Positions 8,403-50,408 of a DNA stretch of 64,000 nt are shown piece after piece. Position numbers and translations under genes: made by a program. Below the pieces are notes generated by a model. It saw only the letters and a program-made list of their open reading frames with translations. It was not told the DNA's origin and made no database searches. The DNA comes from Devosia oryzisoli (GTDB lineage: Bacteria > Pseudomonadota > Alphaproteobacteria > Rhizobiales > Devosiaceae): contig NZ_JACYFU010000003.1 of NCBI RefSeq assembly GCF_014837245.1, positions 124,001 through 188,000 of the forward strand, read 5' to 3'. How positions within the stretch are numbered: position 1 is the stretch's first letter; every line of letters begins with the position of its first letter.

Positions 8403-9898
<1,496 letters not shown>

Positions 9899-9904
9899 GG
9901 ACGC

Positions 9905-10450
9905 ATGGTGGGCACATTCACCAGCATCGCCCCCCTCACCCCTACCCTCTCCCCGGAGGGGCGAGGGGGCGATGGTGGCGGCGCTGGTGAAAGTACCGGT
10001 AAAGGCCCAGCGGCTCCTGCGTCCCCTCGCCCCTCCAGGGTGAGAGGGGTCAAGGCGCAACCGTCGCAGGTCGAGCGGGCACGCACATTGCGAGCAACGA
10101 TGACCGACGCCGAAAAGCGGCTCTGGTCTTTCCTTCGCGACAGGCGCATCGGCGGTTACAAATTCGTCCGCCAATACCCGATCGACCGATACTATGCGGA
10201 CTTTGTCTGTCGCGACGCGATGCTCGTCATCGAAGCCGATGGCGGCCAGCACAATCCTGAGCACGATGCCGTGCGCGACAACGCCATCCGCGCTGCGGGT
10301 TATACGATCCTGCGCTTCTGGAACCACGATATCTTGAAAAGCACGCCCACCGTGCTTGAACTGATCCACAAGGCCCTCGGCTCCTGCGTCCCCTCGCCCC
10401 TCCGGGGAGAGGGGCAGGGTGAGGGGTCTTTCGTCCACGAACAAACCTGA
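9905..10450 (+). CDS. DUF559 endonuclease-like protein, repeat-derived ends
   Basis: Residues about 55-160 form a DUF559 domain (Vsr-like PD-(D/E)XK fold): ERARTLRATMTDAEKRLW, FVRQYPIDRYYADFVC, VIEADGGQH and ILRFWNHD are all present. Function in the cell is unknown. The first 40 or so residues (PLTPTLSPEGRG) and the last 20 (SPLRGEGQGEG) are translations of palindromic repeats that flank the domain. The real start may therefore be the GTG at 10040, or the ATG at 10100, rather than 9905. It interrupts the pyrimidine operon between mmsA and the hydrolase. Confidence 0.75.
   Translation: MVGTFTSIAPLTPTLSPEGRGGDGGGAGESTGKGPAAPASPRPSRVRGVKAQPSQVERARTLRATMTDAEKRLWSFLRDRRIGGYKFVRQYPIDRYYADFVCRDAMLVIEADGGQHNPEHDAVRDNAIRAAGYTILRFWNHDILKSTPTVLELIHKALGSCVPSPLRGEGQGEGSFVHEQT
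9930..10053. repeat. Palindromic repeat pair before DUF559 gene 1
   Basis: 9930-9971 is a palindromic unit built on CCCTCTCCCCGGAGGGGCGAG with flanking CCCCTCACCC; a related inverted unit (CCCCTCGCCCCTCCAGGGTG) lies at 10021-10053. Both are read through by the DUF559 reading frame. Confidence 0.8.
10388..10428. repeat. Palindromic repeat at the 3' end of DUF559 gene 1
   Basis: Inverted copy of the unit at 9930-9971: its reverse complement shares the core CTCTCCCCGGAGGGGCGAGG and the CCCCTCACCC flank. The DUF559 domain is thus bracketed by inverted copies. Confidence 0.8.
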
Positions 10451-10462
10451 CGAGTAACACCC

Positions 10463-11713
10463 ATGACCTCTCCCGGCGAAAACCTTCGGATCAATGGCGA
10501 TCGGCTCTGGGAGAGCCTGATGGAGATGGCCAAGATCGGGCCGGGGGTCGCCGGCGGGAACAATCGCCAGACGCTGACCGATGCCGACAAGGAGGGCCGG
10601 GCGCTCTTTGCCCGCTGGTGCGACGAGGCCGGCCTCACCCTGGGGGTGGACCAGATGGGTACCATGTTTGCCCGCCGCGAAGGCGAGGATCCGAGCCTTG
10701 ATCCGGTCTATGTCGGCAGCCATCTCGATACCCAGCCGACGGGCGGAAAATATGACGGTGTGTTGGGGGTGCTGGGCGGGCTCGAGCTGGTGCGTACGCT
10801 CAACGATCTGGGCATCAAGACCCGACGCCCCATCGTCGTCACCAACTGGACCAACGAGGAAGGCACCCGCTTTGCCCCGGCCATGCTGGCCTCGGGCGTC
10901 TTTGCCGGCATGCACGAGCAGGACTGGGCCTATGACCGCACCGATGCCGAGGGCAAGCGCTTCGGCGACGAACTCGAACGGATCGGCTGGAAGGGCGAGG
11001 AAGCGGTGGGCGCGCGCAAGATCCACGCCATGTTCGAGCTTCATATCGAGCAGGGGCCGATCCTCGAAGCGGAAGGCAAGGATATCGGCGTCGTCACCCA
11101 CGGGCAGGGCCTTTGGTGGCTCGAGGTGACGCTGACCGGCAAGGACGCGCATACCGGTTCGACGCCGATGACCATGCGCGTCAATGCCGGTCTCGGCATG
11201 GCGCGGGTCACCGAAGCGGTGCACCGCATCGCCATGGCGCACCAGCCCGACGCCGTGGGGGCGGTGGGGCAGGCCAATGTCTATCCCAATTCGCGCAACG
11301 TCATCCCGGGCAAGGCGGTGTTCACCATCGACATCCGCTCACCGGACCTGGGCAAGCTCACGTCCATGCGCTCGGAAATCGAGGCGGAGGCGGCGCGGAT
11401 CGCGGAAGAACTGGGACTGGGCGTCAAGATCGAGCCGGTCGGGCATTTCGACCCCGTCACCTTCGACCCGGGCTGCGTCAGCGCCGTGCGGCAAGCCGCC
11501 GAACGCCTTGGCTACTCCCATCGCGACATCGTCTCGGGCGCTGGCCACGACGCCTGCTGGATCAACCGCGTCGCCCCCACCGCCATGATCATGTGCCCCT
11601 GCGTCGATGGCCTGTCGCACAACGAGGCCGAGGAGATTTCCAAGGAATGGGCGACGGCAGGCGCGGATGTGCTGTTCCACGCGGTAGTGGAGACGGCTGG
11701 GATCGTGGAGTGA
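10463..11713 (+). CDS. M20-family beta-ureidopropionase / N-carbamoyl amino acid hydrolase
   Basis: 416 residues, Zn-dependent amidase of the AllC/HyuC group. In this operon it should hydrolyse N-carbamoyl-beta-alanine (and the isobutyrate analogue) to the beta-amino acid, CO2 and ammonia. Metal-ligand motifs are all there: GSHLDT near 85, GGKYDG, NEEGTRFAPAM with the catalytic Glu pair, LHIEQGP, and LSHNEAEE near the C-terminus; the dimerisation part holds GKDAHTGSTPM. Only a weak ribosome site (ACGAG) precedes the ATG. Substrate is inferred from context between mmsA and hydA; allantoate and L-carbamoyl amidases are close relatives. Confidence 0.9.
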   Translation: MTSPGENLRINGDRLWESLMEMAKIGPGVAGGNNRQTLTDADKEGRALFARWCDEAGLTLGVDQMGTMFARREGEDPSLDPVYVGSHLDTQPTGGKYDGVLGVLGGLELVRTLNDLGIKTRRPIVVTNWTNEEGTRFAPAMLASGVFAGMHEQDWAYDRTDAEGKRFGDELERIGWKGEEAVGARKIHAMFELHIEQGPILEAEGKDIGVVTHGQGLWWLEVTLTGKDAHTGSTPMTMRVNAGLGMARVTEAVHRIAMAHQPDAVGAVGQANVYPNSRNVIPGKAVFTIDIRSPDLGKLTSMRSEIEAEAARIAEELGLGVKIEPVGHFDPVTFDPGCVSAVRQAAERLGYSHRDIVSGAGHDACWINRVAPTAMIMCPCVDGLSHNEAEEISKEWATAGADVLFHAVVETAGIVE

Positions 11714-11733
11714 GATTCTGATGGTGCGCAAAG

Positions 11734-11861
11734 CCCCCTCACCCGTCTCGCGCTCTGCGCGATCCACCCTCTCCCCGAGAGGGAGAGGAATAAGGTCGGA
11801 CGCTTGGCCATTCTTCTCCCTCTTGGGGAGAAGGTGGCGCGCAGCGCCGGATGAGGGGGTG
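11734..11861. repeat. Palindromic repeat pair before DUF559 gene 2
   Basis: Two inverted units: 11734-11790 (CCCCTCACCC followed by CCCTCTCCCCGAGAGGGAGAGG) and 11811-11861 (TTCTCCCTCTTGGGGAGAAGG ending GGATGAGGGGG). Confidence 0.8.
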
Positions 11862-11866
11862 TCGAG

Positions 11867-12385
11867 GTGACCACCCGCCCCCGCCAATTGCGCCGCGCCG
11901 CTTCCATAGCCGAAAACCGGCTCTGGTATGTGCTGCGCAACCGGGGTTTGAACGGACTGAAGTTCGTACGGCAGATGCCGGTTGGATCGTACATCGCGGA
12001 TTTCGCCTGCCGCGAGGCGGCGTTGATCGTTGAACTCGATGGCGGGCAGCATGCGGATAGTGTCGCAGACGAGGCGAGGACTGCGTTTCTGAACCGGGAA
12101 GGCTATTCGGTTCTGCGCTTCTGGAACAACGAAGTGCTCAGCAACCGGGACGGTGTGCTGTCGACAATATTGCGGGTGATCGAAGGGTCCCCCTCACCCG
12201 ACCTCCGCTTCGCTCCGGCCACCCTCTCCCCGAGGGGGAGAGGAAGAAGAGGCGCGCGCGCTGCCGACGGCGCCAACTTTCTCAATCAGGCACGATCCGT
12301 TCTTCTCCCTCTCGGGGAGAAGGTGGCTCGCCCGCAGGGCGAGACGGATGAAGGGGCCTTGCTTACCAAAGGGAACACAGCATGA
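11867..12385 (+). CDS. DUF559 endonuclease-like protein, second copy
   Basis: GTG-started 172-residue protein. Residues 5-105 are a DUF559 domain with AENRLWYVLRNRG, FVRQMPVGSYIADFAC, ALIVELDGGQH and SVLRFWNNEVL. It is clearly related to, but roughly half different from, the copy at 9905-10450, so it is not a recent duplicate. The last 60 residues (ATLSPRGRGRRG, then LLPLGEKVARPQG) are translated palindromic repeats. The stop overlaps the hydA start (ATGA), so hydA translation may depend on this gene. Biological role unknown. Confidence 0.75.
   Translation: MTTRPRQLRRAASIAENRLWYVLRNRGLNGLKFVRQMPVGSYIADFACREAALIVELDGGQHADSVADEARTAFLNREGYSVLRFWNNEVLSNRDGVLSTILRVIEGSPSPDLRFAPATLSPRGRGRRGARAADGANFLNQARSVLLPLGEKVARPQGETDEGALLTKGNTA
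12188..12358. repeat. Palindromic repeat pair at the 3' end of DUF559 gene 2
   Basis: Units at 12188-12244 (CCCCTCACCC then CCCTCTCCCCGAGGGGGAGAGG) and, inverted, 12301-12358 (TTCTCCCTCTCGGGGAGAAGG then GACGGATGAAGGGGC). They lie inside the DUF559 reading frame just before hydA. Confidence 0.8.
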
Positions 12386-13833
12386 GCACAGTCATCAAGA
12401 ACGGCACGGTCGTCACTGCGGATCTCTCCTACGCGGCCGATGTCAGAATCGAGAACGGCACCATCGTCGAGATCGGCAAGGGCCTTTCGGGCGACGAGGT
12501 GCTCGATGCCACCGGGTGTCTCGTCATGCCGGGCGGCATCGATCCGCACACCCATCTCGAAATGCCGTTCATGGGCACCTATTCGGCCGACGATTTCGAG
12601 AGCGGGACGCGGGCGGCGTTGGCGGGGGGCACCACGATGGTGGTGGATTTCTGCCTGCCCAATCCGGACCAGTCGCTGCTGGAAGCGCTCCAGATGTGGG
12701 ACAACAAGACCGGCAAGGCCTCGACCGACTATTCCTTCCACATGGCCATCACCTGGTGGGGGGAGCAGGTGTTCAACGAGATGGCCGAGGTGGTGGATCG
12801 CGGCATCACCAGCTTCAAGCATTTCATGGCCTATAAGGGCTCGCTGATGGTGAACGACGACGAGATGTTCGCCAGCTTCCAGCGCTGCGCCGCGCTCGGC
12901 GCGCTGCCGCTGGTGCATGCCGAGAACGGCGACGTCGTCGCGGCGATGACGCAGAAACTCTTGGCCGAAGGCAATAACGGGCCGGAGGGCCACGCCTATT
13001 CGCGGCCGCCCGAAGTCGAGGGGGAAGCGACCAACCGCGCCATCATGATCGCGGACATGGCCGGCGTGCCGCTTTATGTGGTGCACACCAGCTGCGAGCA
13101 GGCGCACGAGGCGATCCGCCGGGCGCGGCAGAAGGGCATGCGGGTGTATGGCGAGCCGCTGATCCAGCATCTGGTCCTCGACGAGAGCGAATACTTCAAC
13201 CCAGACTGGGACCATGCGGCGCGACGGGTGATGTCGCCGCCGTTCCGCAACAAGCAACATCAGGATTCGCTCTGGGCCGGGCTGCAGGCGGGCTCGCTTT
13301 CCTGCGTTGCGACCGACCATTGCGCCTTCACCACCGAGCAGAAGCGCACGGGCGTGGGCAATTTTGCCAAGATTCCCAACGGCACGGGCGGGCTTGAGGA
13401 CCGATTGCCGGTGCTCTGGACAGCGGGCGTCAACACCGGCCGGCTGACGCCGAACGAGTTCGTGGCGGTCACCTCCACCAACATCGCCAAAATCCTCAAC
13501 CTCTATCCCAAAAAGGGTGCGGTGCTGGTGGGGGCCGATGCCGACCTCGTGGTCTGGGACCCCAAGGCCAAGAAGACCATTTCAGCGGGCAAGCAGCAGT
13601 CGGTGATCGACTACAACGTCTTCGAAGGTTTCGAGGTCACCGGCCTGCCGCGGTTCGTGCTGTCGCGCGGCAAGGTGTCGGTGGTGGAAAACGAGATGCG
13701 GGCGGAGCCCGGCCACGGCAAGTTTGTGGCGCGCGAAGCGAAAAACCCTGTGAACAGGGCGCTCAGCCAATGGAAGGAGATCGTCGCGCCGCGCAAGGTG
13801 GAGCGGTCTGGAATTCCGGCGACGGGGGTTTGA
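12382..13833 (+). CDS. hydA: Dihydropyrimidinase
   Basis: Zn-dependent cyclic amidohydrolase, 483 residues, opening 5,6-dihydrouracil or dihydrothymine to the N-carbamoyl-beta-amino acid. Metal ligands visible: H56 and H58 (DPHTHLE), the carboxylated lysine K152 (FMAYKGS), His in LVHAENG, His in VVHTSCEQAH, and Asp312 (ATDHCAF). It matches the hydantoinase/dihydropyrimidinase family over its full length. The start overlaps the DUF559 stop by four bases. It delivers the substrate of the M20 amidase upstream and uses the product of PreTA. Confidence 0.95.
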   Translation: MSTVIKNGTVVTADLSYAADVRIENGTIVEIGKGLSGDEVLDATGCLVMPGGIDPHTHLEMPFMGTYSADDFESGTRAALAGGTTMVVDFCLPNPDQSLLEALQMWDNKTGKASTDYSFHMAITWWGEQVFNEMAEVVDRGITSFKHFMAYKGSLMVNDDEMFASFQRCAALGALPLVHAENGDVVAAMTQKLLAEGNNGPEGHAYSRPPEVEGEATNRAIMIADMAGVPLYVVHTSCEQAHEAIRRARQKGMRVYGEPLIQHLVLDESEYFNPDWDHAARRVMSPPFRNKQHQDSLWAGLQAGSLSCVATDHCAFTTEQKRTGVGNFAKIPNGTGGLEDRLPVLWTAGVNTGRLTPNEFVAVTSTNIAKILNLYPKKGAVLVGADADLVVWDPKAKKTISAGKQQSVIDYNVFEGFEVTGLPRFVLSRGKVSVVENEMRAEPGHGKFVAREAKNPVNRALSQWKEIVAPRKVERSGIPATGV

Positions 13834-13860
13834 TGGGCGGTTCTGTGAACGTGGTGGCAT

Positions 13861-13986
13861 CCCCCTCATCCAGCCCTTCGGGCCACCTTTTCCCCGAGGG
13901 GGAGAAGAAGAGCGCTGGCGCCCTCCTGTTCCTCTCCCCCTCGGGGAGAGGGTGGATCGCGCGCAGCGCGAGACGGGTGAGGGGGG
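13861..13986. repeat. Palindromic repeat pair between hydA and the ABC ATPase gene
   Basis: Units 13861-13912 (CCCCTCATCC, TTTTCCCCGAGGGGGAGAAG) and 13927-13986 (CTCTCCCCCTCGGGGAGAGGG ending GACGGGTGAGGGGGG). The last G run lies 8 bases before the next ATG and can serve as its Shine-Dalgarno. Confidence 0.8.
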
Positions 13987-13993
13987 CGCCCGA

Positions 13994-14782
13994 ATGACCG
14001 CTGTCGTTTCCGCCCGCCATCTCGGCCTCACCTTCCGCACCAATGACGGGGACGTGGTGGCGCTGAGCGATGTCGATCTCGAGATTGGCAAGGGCGAGTT
14101 CGTTTCCTTCATCGGCCCCTCGGGCTGCGGCAAGACGACGTTTTTGCGCACCATTGCCGATCTGGAACAGCCGACCTCGGGCACGCTCACGGTCAATGGG
14201 CAGACGCCGGAGACCGCGCGTCGCGACCGCTCCTACGGCTATGTGTTCCAGGCGCCGGCGCTCTACCCCTGGCGCACCATTGAAAAGAACGTCGCCCTGC
14301 CGCTCGAGATCATGGGCTATTCGGCGCCCCAGCAGGCCGAGCGGATCGGGCGGACGCTGGACCTCGTCAATCTGTCGGGGTTCGAGAAGAAATTCCCCTG
14401 GCAGCTGTCGGGCGGCATGCAGCAGCGCGCCTCGATTGCCCGGGCCCTGGCGTTCGACGCGGATCTCCTTCTGATGGACGAGCCGTTCGGGGCGCTGGAC
14501 GAGATCGTGCGCGACCATCTCAATTCCGAATTGCTCAAACTCTGGGCCGCGACGGGCAAGACCATCTGTTTCGTGACGCACTCCATTCCCGAGGCGGTGT
14601 ACCTCTCCACCAAGATCGTCGTCATGTCGCCGCGGCCGGGGCGGGTGACGGATGTGATCGAAAGCGACCTGCCGCGCGAACGCCCGCTCGATATCCGCGA
14701 GACGCCGGAGTTCCTGGCCATCGCCGCCCGCGTGCGCGAGGGGCTCCGGGCCGGGCATTCCTATGACGAGGGGGCTGTGTGA
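13994..14782 (+). CDS. ABC transporter ATPase, nitrate/taurine/NMT1 type
   Basis: 262-residue ATPase with Walker A GPSGCGKTT near 45, signature LSGGMQQR near 143, and Walker B LLLMDEPFGALDE. It belongs to the SsuB/TauB/ThiZ-like group that works with the two permeases and NMT1-family binding protein downstream. The ATG at 13994 is taken because in-frame sequence further upstream is repeat. Genetic context suggests import of a pyrimidine or its reduced or ring-opened derivative; thiamine precursor or riboflavin import is possible for this family. Confidence 0.9.
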   Translation: MTAVVSARHLGLTFRTNDGDVVALSDVDLEIGKGEFVSFIGPSGCGKTTFLRTIADLEQPTSGTLTVNGQTPETARRDRSYGYVFQAPALYPWRTIEKNVALPLEIMGYSAPQQAERIGRTLDLVNLSGFEKKFPWQLSGGMQQRASIARALAFDADLLLMDEPFGALDEIVRDHLNSELLKLWAATGKTICFVTHSIPEAVYLSTKIVVMSPRPGRVTDVIESDLPRERPLDIRETPEFLAIAARVREGLRAGHSYDEGAV

Positions 14783-14810
14783 TGGCGGGGGCGAGGGGCT
14801 GCGCCTTCAC

Positions 14811-14963
14811 CTCTCCCCTGAGGGGAGAGAGCTTGCCCTCGGGCTTGACCCGACGGGTCGCCGCTAAGCGGCGGGTGAGGGGTTCAGCGCCAGCTTGGAG
14901 CGCTGGGGCTTTTACAGGCTCTGAACCCCTCACCCCGGCCCTCTCCCCTCAGGGGAGAGGGAG
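14811..14963. repeat. Palindromic repeat pair between ABC ATPase and permease genes
   Basis: Units 14811-14886 (CACCTCTCCCCTGAGGGGAGAG ... GGCGGGTGAGGGG) and 14924-14963 (CCCCTCACCCC, CTCTCCCCTCAGGGGAGAGGG). The end of the second unit places AGAGGGAG five bases before the permease GTG. Confidence 0.8.
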
Positions 14964-14966
14964 TGC

Positions 14967-15887
14967 GTGCAGCGGTTGGGACAAAGCTTCATGACCCGCT
15001 TCCTGCCCATCCTCACCGTCGTCGTCGCCATCGTCCTTGTCTGGTATGCGGCGGCGATCGGGATGAATGCGGCGTGGCAGAACGACGTCTATCGGCGCGG
15101 TGACGTTGCCAATGTGCCCTTCACCCAGTTCGTGCTCGACACCTGGAGCCAGGACAAGCCGGTGCTGCCGGCGCCGCACCAGGTGGCGATCGAGGTCTGG
15201 AACGCGACGGCCATGGTGGCGCCGAATAAGCCACGCAGTCTTCTCTTTCATGCCTGGGTGACGTTTTCCGCCACCGGGCTGGGCTTTGTCATGGGCTCGC
15301 TGCTCGGGATAGGGTTGGCCGTCCTCATCGTGCACAACGAGGCGATGAACCGCTCGCTGATGCCCTGGATCGTCGCGAGCCAGACCATCCCCATCCTGGC
15401 GCTGGCGCCGCTGATCGTGGTGATCGGGTTCAACATCTTCACCGGCACCATCGGCATTCCGACCGATCCGGCGCGTCTGCTGAGCAAAGCCATCATATCG
15501 GCCTATCTCAGCTTCTTTCCGGTGGCCGTGGGCATGGTCAAAGGGTTGCGCAGCCCCGAGGCGATCCAGCTCGATCTCATGCACACCTATAATGCCACGC
15601 CGTCGCAAGTGTTCTGGAAGCTGCGCTGGCCCGCCTCGGTGCCCTATCTCTTCGCCTCGCTCAAGGTGGGGGTCGCCGCGAGCCTCGTCGGCGCCATCGT
15701 GGGCGAATTGCCCACCGGCGCGGTGGCCGGGCTCGGGGCGCGGCTCCTCGCCGGGTCCTATTACAGCCAGACGACGCAGATCTGGTCGGCGCTAGTCGTC
15801 GCCTCGATGCTGGCGGCGCTGCTGGTGGCGGCGGTGGGCGTCGTCGAAAAGCTCGTCAACCGGGCCATGGGGGCGCGTCCGGCATGA
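14967..15887 (+). CDS. ABC transporter permease 1
   Basis: Inner-membrane permease of the BPD_transp_1 family, about 306 residues, with an N-terminal membrane anchor, a periplasmic stretch of about 60 residues, then five or so membrane helices. The EAA-type cytoplasmic loop is visible as GLRSPEAIQLDLMHTYNATP near 190-210. Start may be the GTG at 14967 (good ribosome site supplied by the repeat) or the ATG at 14991. Overlaps the next permease gene by ATGA. Confidence 0.88.
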   Translation: MQRLGQSFMTRFLPILTVVVAIVLVWYAAAIGMNAAWQNDVYRRGDVANVPFTQFVLDTWSQDKPVLPAPHQVAIEVWNATAMVAPNKPRSLLFHAWVTFSATGLGFVMGSLLGIGLAVLIVHNEAMNRSLMPWIVASQTIPILALAPLIVVIGFNIFTGTIGIPTDPARLLSKAIISAYLSFFPVAVGMVKGLRSPEAIQLDLMHTYNATPSQVFWKLRWPASVPYLFASLKVGVAASLVGAIVGELPTGAVAGLGARLLAGSYYSQTTQIWSALVVASMLAALLVAAVGVVEKLVNRAMGARPA

Positions 15888-24559: not shown

Positions 24560-24784
24560 TCACCCCCACCCTCGGTCCCTCCCCATCAAGGGGAGGGAGG
24601 CGATGAACATGGGCTTTGCGCTCGCGGTTGTTCTTAGGGACATCCGCTCGGTGGGCCCGCGGACCTTCCGGCCAGACCTCGAAGATTGTCAATCGGATCT
24701 CCCACCCGCACCTGATGGTGCCCCCCGGCCCCCCAGCCTGCGCCTCCCTCCCCTCGATGGGGAGGGACCGAGGGTGGGGTGGAG
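24560..24784. repeat. Inverted pair of palindromic repeats, 24.56-24.78 kb
   Basis: 24560-24603 (CCCACCCTCGGTCCCTCCCC, then ATCAAGGGGAGGGAGG) and 24744-24784 (CCTCCCTCCCCTCGATGGGG, then AGGGACCGAGGGTGGGG) are near-perfect inverted copies enclosing about 140 bases without a gene. The 290-base gap contains nothing else I can support. Confidence 0.8.
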
Positions 24785-44860: not shown

Positions 44861-45395
44861 TGTTGCTTCCCTGAAGATACGCGAGATCGAGCGCCGCGGA
44901 GCACAACGTTCATGATCTAAGGAAAGCGGCAGGAGCCGGGGACCAGAGGCGTCTGAAACGCATCACCCTATATAGGGCGCAATAGCCGCTTTTGTAAGGC
45001 GGCAGGGTGGCAAGATCCTCGCTAGAACCATCACTGGCGGCTCGGAAGCGATCTGGGTCGCCACAGCATTGCCCCTGAAGCTTGGACAGGCTCGATGCGG
45101 CTCCTCCCCCGTGACGGGGGAGGCTGGGTGGGGGTGCGCCCCGCGCTGGTGACCAGTAACAAGCATCCTGCGCGCGATCCCCCCACCCCGTCCCTCCCCG
45201 CGAGGGGGAGAGAGCCGGATCGAGTAAGCACAAACACCTGGCGCACAGCTCCCGATGACGTTCCGTCGGTGTGCTGCAGGCCGCGGCTCCCTCGCTTGGT
45301 CCAGGATCGTCCACGAAGGTCTCACAGACCCCATGCGGCACCTCCCCATGAGGGGGAGGGTGCCGGATCGAGCATAGCCCCATACACCTGGCCCC
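44861..45395. repeat. Intergenic region with three palindromic repeats
   Basis: 535 bases without a gene. Palindromic units: 45100-45140 (CTCCCCCGTGACGGGGGAGG, then TGGGTGGGGGTGCG), 45178-45212 (CCCCACCCCGTCCCTCCCCG) and 45333-45371 (GCACCTCCCCATGAGGGGGAG). The first half holds the promoter for the two small minus-strand genes. Confidence 0.7.
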
Positions 45396-50000: not shown

Positions 50001-50408
50001 GCCCTTCGCGCGATCACAGCCCTTCGACACCCCACACAGTCACCCCCGCGAAAGCGGGGGCCTCCGTTTCAAGGGGCCAACAGAGGGTCCCGCTTTCGCG
50101 GGCATGGCATCGTGGCTGGCTGACCCAATTATTGCCCGGTTACGCGCAGGACGCCTCCCCGCCAGCCGCGGCCTCCTCCCTCCCCCTCGCGGGGAGGGAC
50201 CGAGGGTGGGGGGTGGCACAGCCACCAAGCCAGGACCCAGGCCCCCATTCCTCTCCCCTCGGGCAGAGGGTGGCGCGGCCAAGGCCGAAACGGGTGAGGG
50301 CGGCCTGGGTGATTGGGGGGGCCATGGCGTGGTTTTCGGACGGGCAGCTTCTGAGGAACCTCTAGCACAAAGCAGCCGCATGAACCGGACTTGCCCTATT
50401 GTGACATC
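50001..50408. repeat. Repeat-rich region between lepA and the DUF4365 patch
   Basis: About 400 bases without a gene. Palindromes: 50036-50104 (CCCCGCGAAAGCGGGGGCC, then a partner GTCCCGCTTTCGCGGGCA), 50168-50216 (CCTCCCCCTCGCGGGGAGGG, then ACCGAGGGTGGGG) and 50247-50300 (CTCTCCCCTCGGGCAGAGGG, then GAAACGGGTGAGGG). They mark the edge of the lower-GC patch. Confidence 0.75.

Follow-up and report, generated by a model that had tools for sequence, protein, structure and literature searches.

Among the short palindromes that are dispersed in bacterial intergenic DNA, the repetitive extragenic palindromic (REP) and REPIN elements have a known partner enzyme, the Y1 transposase RAYT (TnpA_REP), whereas the CGTC-tagged REPs, prominent in Alphaproteobacteria, are reported to be without a known transposase (PMC3733652). 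Intrastrand triplex motifs (PIT/TM), for which Holder and colleagues in 2015 cite Hoyne 2000, are reported in 262 proteobacterial genomes as single copies and inverted pairs; triplex formation by TM_ECO is reported in vitro, PIT/TM loci are described as unusually variable in their surroundings, and mobility genes are reported never to have been found adjoining the motifs (PMC4666352). DUF559 (PF04480) on the other hand is a common protein family without a settled role that includes ycjD of E. coli K-12, and YcjD has been assigned to the PD-(D/E)XK superfamily and linked by profile to Vsr (PMC1189080). Here we describe a stretch of 64,000 nucleotides from Devosia oryzisoli (the window; positions 124001-188000 of contig NZ_JACYFU010000003.1, our C7, in a genome of 3.68 Mb and 12 contigs) in which triplex-type repeats and two DUF559 genes, DUF559a and DUF559b, share one operon, and report that nearly all sampled DUF559 genes adjoin, and mostly sit between, inverted repeats of this type.

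An earlier sequence-only reading of the window supplied the names mmsA, hyuC, hydantoinase, ABC and permease, and only DUF559 is derived by family search. That reading had placed palindromes at every junction from mmsA to the first permease, inverted copies around both DUF559 genes and few such repeats elsewhere, and all three points stand. Eleven palindromic elements can be read in the four gaps (9931-14962), namely three in mmsA-hyuC, four in hyuC-hydantoinase, two in hydantoinase-ABC and two in ABC-permease; DUF559b sits between two inverted dimers and DUF559a between copies at 9931/10020 and 10387; and hairpins scoring 8 or more number seven in the 5.06 kb of 9905-14963 (1.38 per kb) against 18 in the other 58.9 kb (0.31 per kb). 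For purine-arm hairpins at the same score the figures are seven inside and four outside (24576, 24745, 45103 and 50177). Of the octamer CTCTCCCC the window has 17 copies where 3.35 would be expected, a count that none of 100 shuffles reached, and 11 of the 17 fall within 9947-14959, whilst the perfect palindrome CTCTCCCC-N2..6-GGGGAGAG is found ten times in the whole genome, four of them in the 9905-14963 region. In a typical element a C-rich and a G-rich arm enclose a loop of a few bases, and a second G-rich stretch (or the complement of one), called here the third strand, lies to one side; many of the window copies have a long link between arm and second stretch that contains a further hairpin. 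Elements are mostly in inverted pairs, two of which carry no gene, and some are imperfect, B and F1 being the clearly degenerate two of the eleven. In order along the window the features are:

9931-9969, forward strand: repeat A, upstream of DUF559a; third strand CCCTCACCC, spacer, imperfect stem-loop.
10020-10049, forward strand: repeat B, degenerate, upstream of DUF559a; its first 17 bases are identical to those of repeat C.
10070-10378, forward strand: DUF559a domain, in the open reading frame (ORF) 9905-10450; PF04480 at residues 56-158; genome match C7:134070-134378.
10387-10426, forward strand: repeat C, downstream of DUF559a and inverted relative to A; stem-loop, then third strand GGGTGAGGGG.
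11734-11859, forward strand: inverted dimer upstream of DUF559b; D1 11734-11789, D2 11813-11859, third strands at the outer ends.
11867-12385, forward strand: DUF559b gene; GTG start, homology to 12181 and then a tail encoded by dimer E; PF04480 at residues 3-105.
12189-12357, forward strand: inverted dimer E, downstream of DUF559b; E1 12189-12245, E2 12302-12357.
13861-13986, forward strand: gene-less inverted dimer F1, F2 in the hydantoinase-ABC gap, from sequence reading with relatives compared.
14810-14962, forward strand: gene-less inverted pair in the ABC-permease gap; G1 14810-14884, G2 14926-14962.

The repeats run into the coding sequence, since the 11867 ORF continues through the dimer at 12189-12357, giving DUF559b a repeat-encoded 3' end, and the 9905 ORF begins before the first repeat and stops past the last, so that both ends of the DUF559a frame are repeat-encoded. 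No Rfam family reaches its gathering score in a scan of 9800-15000. Four purine-arm palindromes lie elsewhere in the window, at 24576-24767, 45103-45123 and 50177-50199; three are of the CCCTCCCC type, which also flanks a DUF559 gene elsewhere in the same genome (L003; L, G and C numbers are our designations for loci, genomes and contigs).

In consensus the window repeats are the PIT/TM_ECO intrastrand triplex motif, a match found by searching the texts of papers (PMC4666352). The second G-rich stretch is the third strand of that motif; in reverse order its bases line up with the purine arm, G facing G and either A or T facing A. This was measured on an unbiased set of 128 purine-arm hairpins lying within 300 bp of DUF559 genes, taking for each measure the better of both strands. 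A perfect 9-base mirror match within 60 nt accompanies 72% of the 128 (mean 0.966), a perfect direct match 38% (mean 0.898) and a match in shuffled flanks 0.7% (mean 0.741). For the 92 hairpins whose arms are not themselves mirror symmetric the figures are 63%, 16% and 0.5%, and so stem and third strand vary in step from one repeat type to another. Of 63 purine-arm hairpins at a distance of over 1 kb from DUF559, 59% have a perfect mirror match, as expected for dispersed copies, a figure that comes from a first version of the test in which the strand was picked by mirror score, favouring mirror over direct or shuffled matches. Judged by their sequence, the flanking repeats are PIT/TM motifs, a stem-loop plus a third strand mirroring the purine arm.

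The expectation that DUF559 genes are flanked by repeats more often than chance allows holds in the window's genome and across Pseudomonadota. In the window's genome each of the four DUF559 matches has inverted palindromes on its two sides, and these are of other repeat types at the two matches that lie beyond the window; the type of L003 belongs to a family with at least 54 joint-pattern palindromes in the genome, ten of them of the window type, and none in the reversed control. From 240 alphaproteobacterial genomes, 93 of the 95 DUF559 matches above 90 bits outside the window's genome were taken (the two left out, G071:C501 and G223:C170, are truncated), and a further five were dropped for short flanks, leaving 88 genes. 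A strict hairpin lies within 250 bp of 74 of these and on both sides of 42; counted by flank, 116 of 176 have one, whereas control ORFs taken from these loci have one on 20 of 290 flanks (odds ratio 26, p = 4e-43) and on both sides in none of 145 cases. At least one DUF559 gene flanked in this way is present in 44 of 54 genomes. Within 100 bp of DUF559 the hairpins reach 5.3 per kb on one side and 7.4 on the other, against 0.13 far away, and with only intergenic gaps considered, 103 of 154 adjoining DUF559 contain a hairpin as compared with 13 of 104 others. A relaxed purine-arm criterion, set after inspection of the 14 loci that failed the strict one, takes in 85 of the 88 genes (53 on both sides) and 5 of the 145 control ORFs (none on both sides). 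Its sole fresh test, on 27 new loci from a 299-genome phylum draw that are the best-scoring new matches and not a random set, gave 26 of 27, 14 with repeats on both sides, over a background of 0.31 per kb. Outside Pseudomonadota, such a repeat stands beside DUF559 in both Deinococcus loci fetched and in one of three cyanobacterial loci. Among 80 loci related to DUF559b a hand count gives 70 with a strict hairpin within 320 bp; these loci were found partly by repeat-encoded-tail peptides and, being biased, are excluded from the rates. GIY-YIG nucleases, another family of small nucleases, from alphaproteobacterial genomes were considered as a second repeat-associated family and dropped, a strict hairpin being present at only 3 of 30 top-scoring loci (two on both sides; loop limit 8 instead of 7, and gene position approximate in seven loci shorter than 3 kb). 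On the cyanobacterial plasmids L254 and L253 the DUF559 genes have a different neighbourhood, adjoining genes with a DUF1156 domain, and possibly represent a branch of the family with another role.

A third strand was found on both sides of the gene at 35 loci, both facing the gene at 28, both facing away at five and ambiguous at two, with no direct pair, and therefore the 33 unambiguous pairs are all inverted. Repeat types moreover follow the nuclease. Twelve genomes have at least two suitable DUF559 genes, and in these the two flanks of one gene have a similarity of 31.8 (n = 29) against 18.3 for flanks of different paralogues (n = 64; permutation p = 5e-5), so that to judge from these sequences the paralogues within one genome carry repeat types of their own. 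Over 45 loci the identity of DUF559 proteins correlates with the similarity of their repeats (Mantel r = 0.44, p = 2e-4), as it does among the seven paralogues of genome G012 (r = 0.75, exact p = 0.006); in this second case, inside one genome, host phylogeny cannot be the cause. G012 has ten DUF559 matches, some partial, in a 3.4-Mb genome with several repeat types.

Comparison of eleven operons, that of the window and those of ten relatives, shows where genes and repeats are present or absent. The relatives were found via their DUF559b gene, and therefore how often the hyuC-hydantoinase slot is filled is not a fair rate; it has DUF559 in nine of the ten (two of them broken) and is empty and without a repeat in L020. 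In the mmsA-hyuC slot DUF559 is present in L005, L012 and L020, and the seven others (L006-L011, L013) are empty and lack a repeat. The eight DUF559-free versions of these two slots taken together contain no purine-arm hairpin of score 7 or more. At the third slot, hydantoinase-ABC, a dimer without a gene is found in the window and in four relatives (L005, L007, L009, L012). Five others (L006, L008, L010, L011, L013) have no repeat of this kind there, L006 showing one unrelated hairpin, and L020 alone has a DUF559 gene together with repeats; so of the slot's ten gene-free versions five have an inverted pair, five no repeat and none a single copy. The sequence-only reading had proposed nuclease genes that travel with, or act on, the repeats in the manner of RAYT, and had predicted empty sites marked by one repeat copy. 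The first idea gains from the association, the inverted copies and the own repeat types, whereas the single-copy site does not appear, the gene-free slots holding nothing or a whole pair. The presence is all or none, and thus the gene plus its repeats, and likewise the gene-less dimers, behave as units. By eye, the empty mmsA-hyuC slots of L007 (4522-4598), L008, L009 and L010 contain a GC-rich hairpin with a T run, resembling a terminator, that is seemingly missing from the filled slots.

A PIT/TM connection extends to E. coli. Its DUF559 member ycjD is present in 3365 of 5426 complete genomes and lies between sapF and fabI, with one PIT/TM copy between ycjD and fabI and a degenerate copy at the ycjD end. 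Lineages without ycjD are reported to have the efflux operon eef at the same site (PMC12817139), and an efflux operon is found there in the ycjD-free L218; in the 22 ycjD-free genomes among the matches listed, the matched region starts to the right of the ycjD repeats. The E. coli search with L058 DNA gave no match, and ycjD was found through a match in the plasmid collection. Directly upstream of ycjD in L214, L215 and L219 is a long inverted repeat, TCACCTCATTCTGACA...TGTCAGAATGAGGTGA, with hairpin scores of 15-19, that is unrelated to the triplex motif.

Concerning the proteins, DUF559a and DUF559b match PF04480 with E values of 1.9e-35 and 1.2e-38 (121.5 and 131.8 bits against a cut-off of 20.6), and the eight best relatives of DUF559b in the genome collection are from Devosia. 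Across seven DUF559b orthologues (L013 not included; two of 21 pairs saturated) dN/dS is 0.05-0.21, which on sequence grounds indicates purifying selection, and E16, D45, D58, Q61, H62 and D68 are invariant in the 40 DUF559 sequences chosen for alignment A1. An AlphaFold2 model (pLDDT 89) superimposes on 3hrl, the solved family member from Neisseria gonorrhoeae, with Z 15.7 and a root-mean-square deviation (rmsd) of 1.2 over 89 residues. Outside the family the nearest solved fold is the catalytic domain of the homing endonuclease I-Bth0305I (3r3p; Z 10.5, rank 2 in Foldseek), and Vsr (1cw0) follows with Z 9.0 and rmsd 2.5 over 93; the window proteins are therefore predicted from the model to be Vsr-like nucleases. 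A likeness to TnsA (Z 6.1) lies in the unspecific range and was not used. Decayed copies also occur, with an internal TGA in L004 (1501-1806) and L009 (6001-6492) and a frameshift in L012 (6001-6637).

The main rival to a repeat-dedicated enzyme, which we nonetheless think unlikely, is one of genome care, in which DUF559 resolves hairpins, triplexes or mismatches at the repeats, or mismatches generally, without spreading the repeats, and the gene remains beside them for that reason. The Vsr similarity speaks for it, as do purifying selection, the filled slot in nine of ten relatives (allowing for how these were found) and the Caulobacter DUF559 protein VsrA, which is reported to be SOS-induced and is proposed to act on TG mismatches (PMC12907096). 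However a repair enzyme acting in trans needs no flanking inverted repeats of its own type, and the pairing by paralogue together with the lack of direct pairs among 35 fits an element better. That the nuclease is instead a selfish gene of the homing type, cutting unoccupied targets and copied in by break repair with the flanking repeats part of the copied cassette or mere homology, we consider distinctly improbable. I-Bth0305I is the homing enzyme of a phage intron, and its closeness in fold, the decayed DUF559 copies and the presence of ycjD in 3365 of 5426 E. coli genomes would all suit such a gene; on the other hand a classical homing gene splits its recognition site where here whole repeats stand on each flank, the eight gene-free versions of two slots lack any repeat, and the gene-less dimers would go unexplained. 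Less probable again is a passive hotspot, where repeats mark recombination-prone junctions that collect any small gene with no functional link. It would draw on the reported variability of PIT/TM loci (PMC4666352) and on the window repeats in two junctions without DUF559, and is disfavoured by the controls, hairpins on both sides being found for none of 145 control ORFs and only 2 of 30 GIY-YIG genes, and by the pairing per paralogue and its co-variation with protein sequence.

Genome content speaks for a repeat-dedicated enzyme. DUF559 is present in 27 of 33 repeat-rich genomes (three or more copies of the commonest repeat pattern, other patterns being uncounted) against 33 of the remaining 207 (p = 1e-13), or in 27 of 32 once the low-complexity artefact G144 is removed; the genome lists were copied by hand, and three genomes with partial domains (G084, G090, G230) count as positive. 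Where members of one family differ in having DUF559, the comparison goes in favour of the carrier 11 times and against it twice, with 11 ties (p = 0.011). Since the PF04480 search missed the annotated ycjD of K-12 MG1655 in the E. coli control, absences of DUF559 are less certain than presences. G042 has 40 copies of the repeat pattern and neither DUF559 nor a Y1 transposase detected. A last rival, in which a Y1 (RAYT) transposase moves the repeats as it does ordinary REP elements and DUF559 has no part in it, is very improbable indeed, for although their palindromes, inverted dimers and dispersal resemble REPINs and seven of the 32 genuine repeat-rich genomes have a Y1_Tnp (PF01797) match, the other 25 and the window's own genome have none, and GTAG stands at the foot of only 2 of 160 flanking hairpins.

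The interpretation we consider reasonably probable is that each DUF559 protein is a nuclease dedicated to the PIT/TM repeats around its gene and selective for their structure or sequence, gene and inverted repeats forming one element; with the same degree of confidence the gene-less inverted dimers are taken as non-autonomous copies of that element. Inverted repeats of their own type, dimers without a gene, presence as units and a selected enzyme of nicking or homing fold together point to repeats that have an enzyme of their own, as REP elements have RAYT, and the bracketing of DUF559 genes suggests that their products are the enzymes so far missing from a widespread family of orphan repeats. 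Recognition, cleavage and a spread driven by cleavage are what we infer DUF559 contributes. In an element exposed as a single strand, whether by a replication fork or in the course of repair, the C-rich arm would pair with the G-rich arm and the third strand would fold back; the Vsr-like nuclease would then recognise the folded repeat and nick or cut it at one end of the element or close by, after which repair or recombination might copy or lose the element. A bolder version, to which we give somewhat less than an even chance, has the YcjD-like DUF559 proteins as mobilising enzymes of intrastrand-triplex repeats, an independent counterpart of REP/RAYT in which each lineage co-evolves with its own repeat, and includes as part of the same claim that the nuclease recognises a three-stranded DNA fold.

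Several observations count against a dedicated enzyme of this kind. Three of the 88 DUF559 genes lack a repeat even at the relaxed criterion, as does one of 27 in the phylum draw, and no such repeat was seen beside DUF559 in L217 (Pseudomonas) or in the cyanobacterial L252 and L253. Two copies beside the N. gonorrhoeae gene are, by eye, in direct orientation, and beside ycjD recognisable PIT/TM copies are downstream only, none being seen upstream. Five repeat-rich genomes (6, 40, 10, 3 and 12 copies) have no detected DUF559, nor did a second search of them with alignment A2, which was made without a positive control, find any, and in the two reversed within-family comparisons the genome without DUF559 has 40 copies against 1, and 10 against 3. 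No target-site duplication was recognised when filled and empty slots were compared by eye, the relatives being very divergent. In vivo footprinting is reported not to have supported stable triplexes in E. coli (PMC4666352), and Caulobacter VsrA, one DUF559 protein with a phenotype, is to its authors a mismatch-repair nuclease (PMC12907096).

The repeats, the protein family and its Vsr likeness were already known, and the association of DUF559 with the repeats we believe to be new, a search of the openly licensed literature having found no coupling of DUF559 or YcjD with REP, REPIN or intrastrand-triplex elements. The link offers both repeat and family a function that can be tested in a laboratory strain and with the solved structure 3hrl. 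If true, it would mean that repeat-plus-enzyme systems of the REP/RAYT sort arose more than once with unrelated enzymes, and possibly that a protein exists which reads triplex DNA.

Set beside the known systems, the window proteins are members of the DUF559/YcjD family by PF04480 and by fold, alongside 3hrl and Caulobacter VsrA, a family read in the literature consulted as Vsr-like repair or restriction-like nucleases. Homing endonucleases differ in that the DUF559 gene does not split a target and has whole repeats, not the halves of an empty site, at its flanks; I-Bth0305I is not known to have bracketing repeats. With the CGTC-tagged REPs a link was tried and dropped, sequence and foot being different and CGTC or TGTC occurring at only 9 of 160 flanking hairpins. 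To the PIT/TM_ECO motifs the likeness is close, with C-rich arm, loop, G-rich arm, short spacer and second G-rich stretch in the same arrangement (PMC4666352), the differences being a longer linker with an extra hairpin in many Devosia-type copies and a nuclease gene beside the repeats, where Holder et al. describe no gene for mobility. With REP/REPIN and RAYT are shared the short palindromes, their inverted dimers and intergenic dispersal, the enzyme gene bracketed by inverted repeats of its own type (42 of 88 on both sides) and one gene for many copies. The early comparison with REP/RAYT, made for a PD-(D/E)XK-type protein, fits, given also the gene-less pairs and a genome in which no Y1 transposase was found. 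In contrast the enzyme here is a Vsr-like PF04480 protein and not a Y1/HUH transposase, and the repeats carry a mirror-matching third strand and seldom a GTAG foot (within 6 nt 5' of the stem on either strand, GTAG, GTGG or GGAG together reach 8 of 160). Because no Y1 transposase was found in the window's genome, few repeat-rich genomes have one and the GTAG tag is rare, the DUF559 system is REP/RAYT-like in its working and not a member of REP/RAYT.

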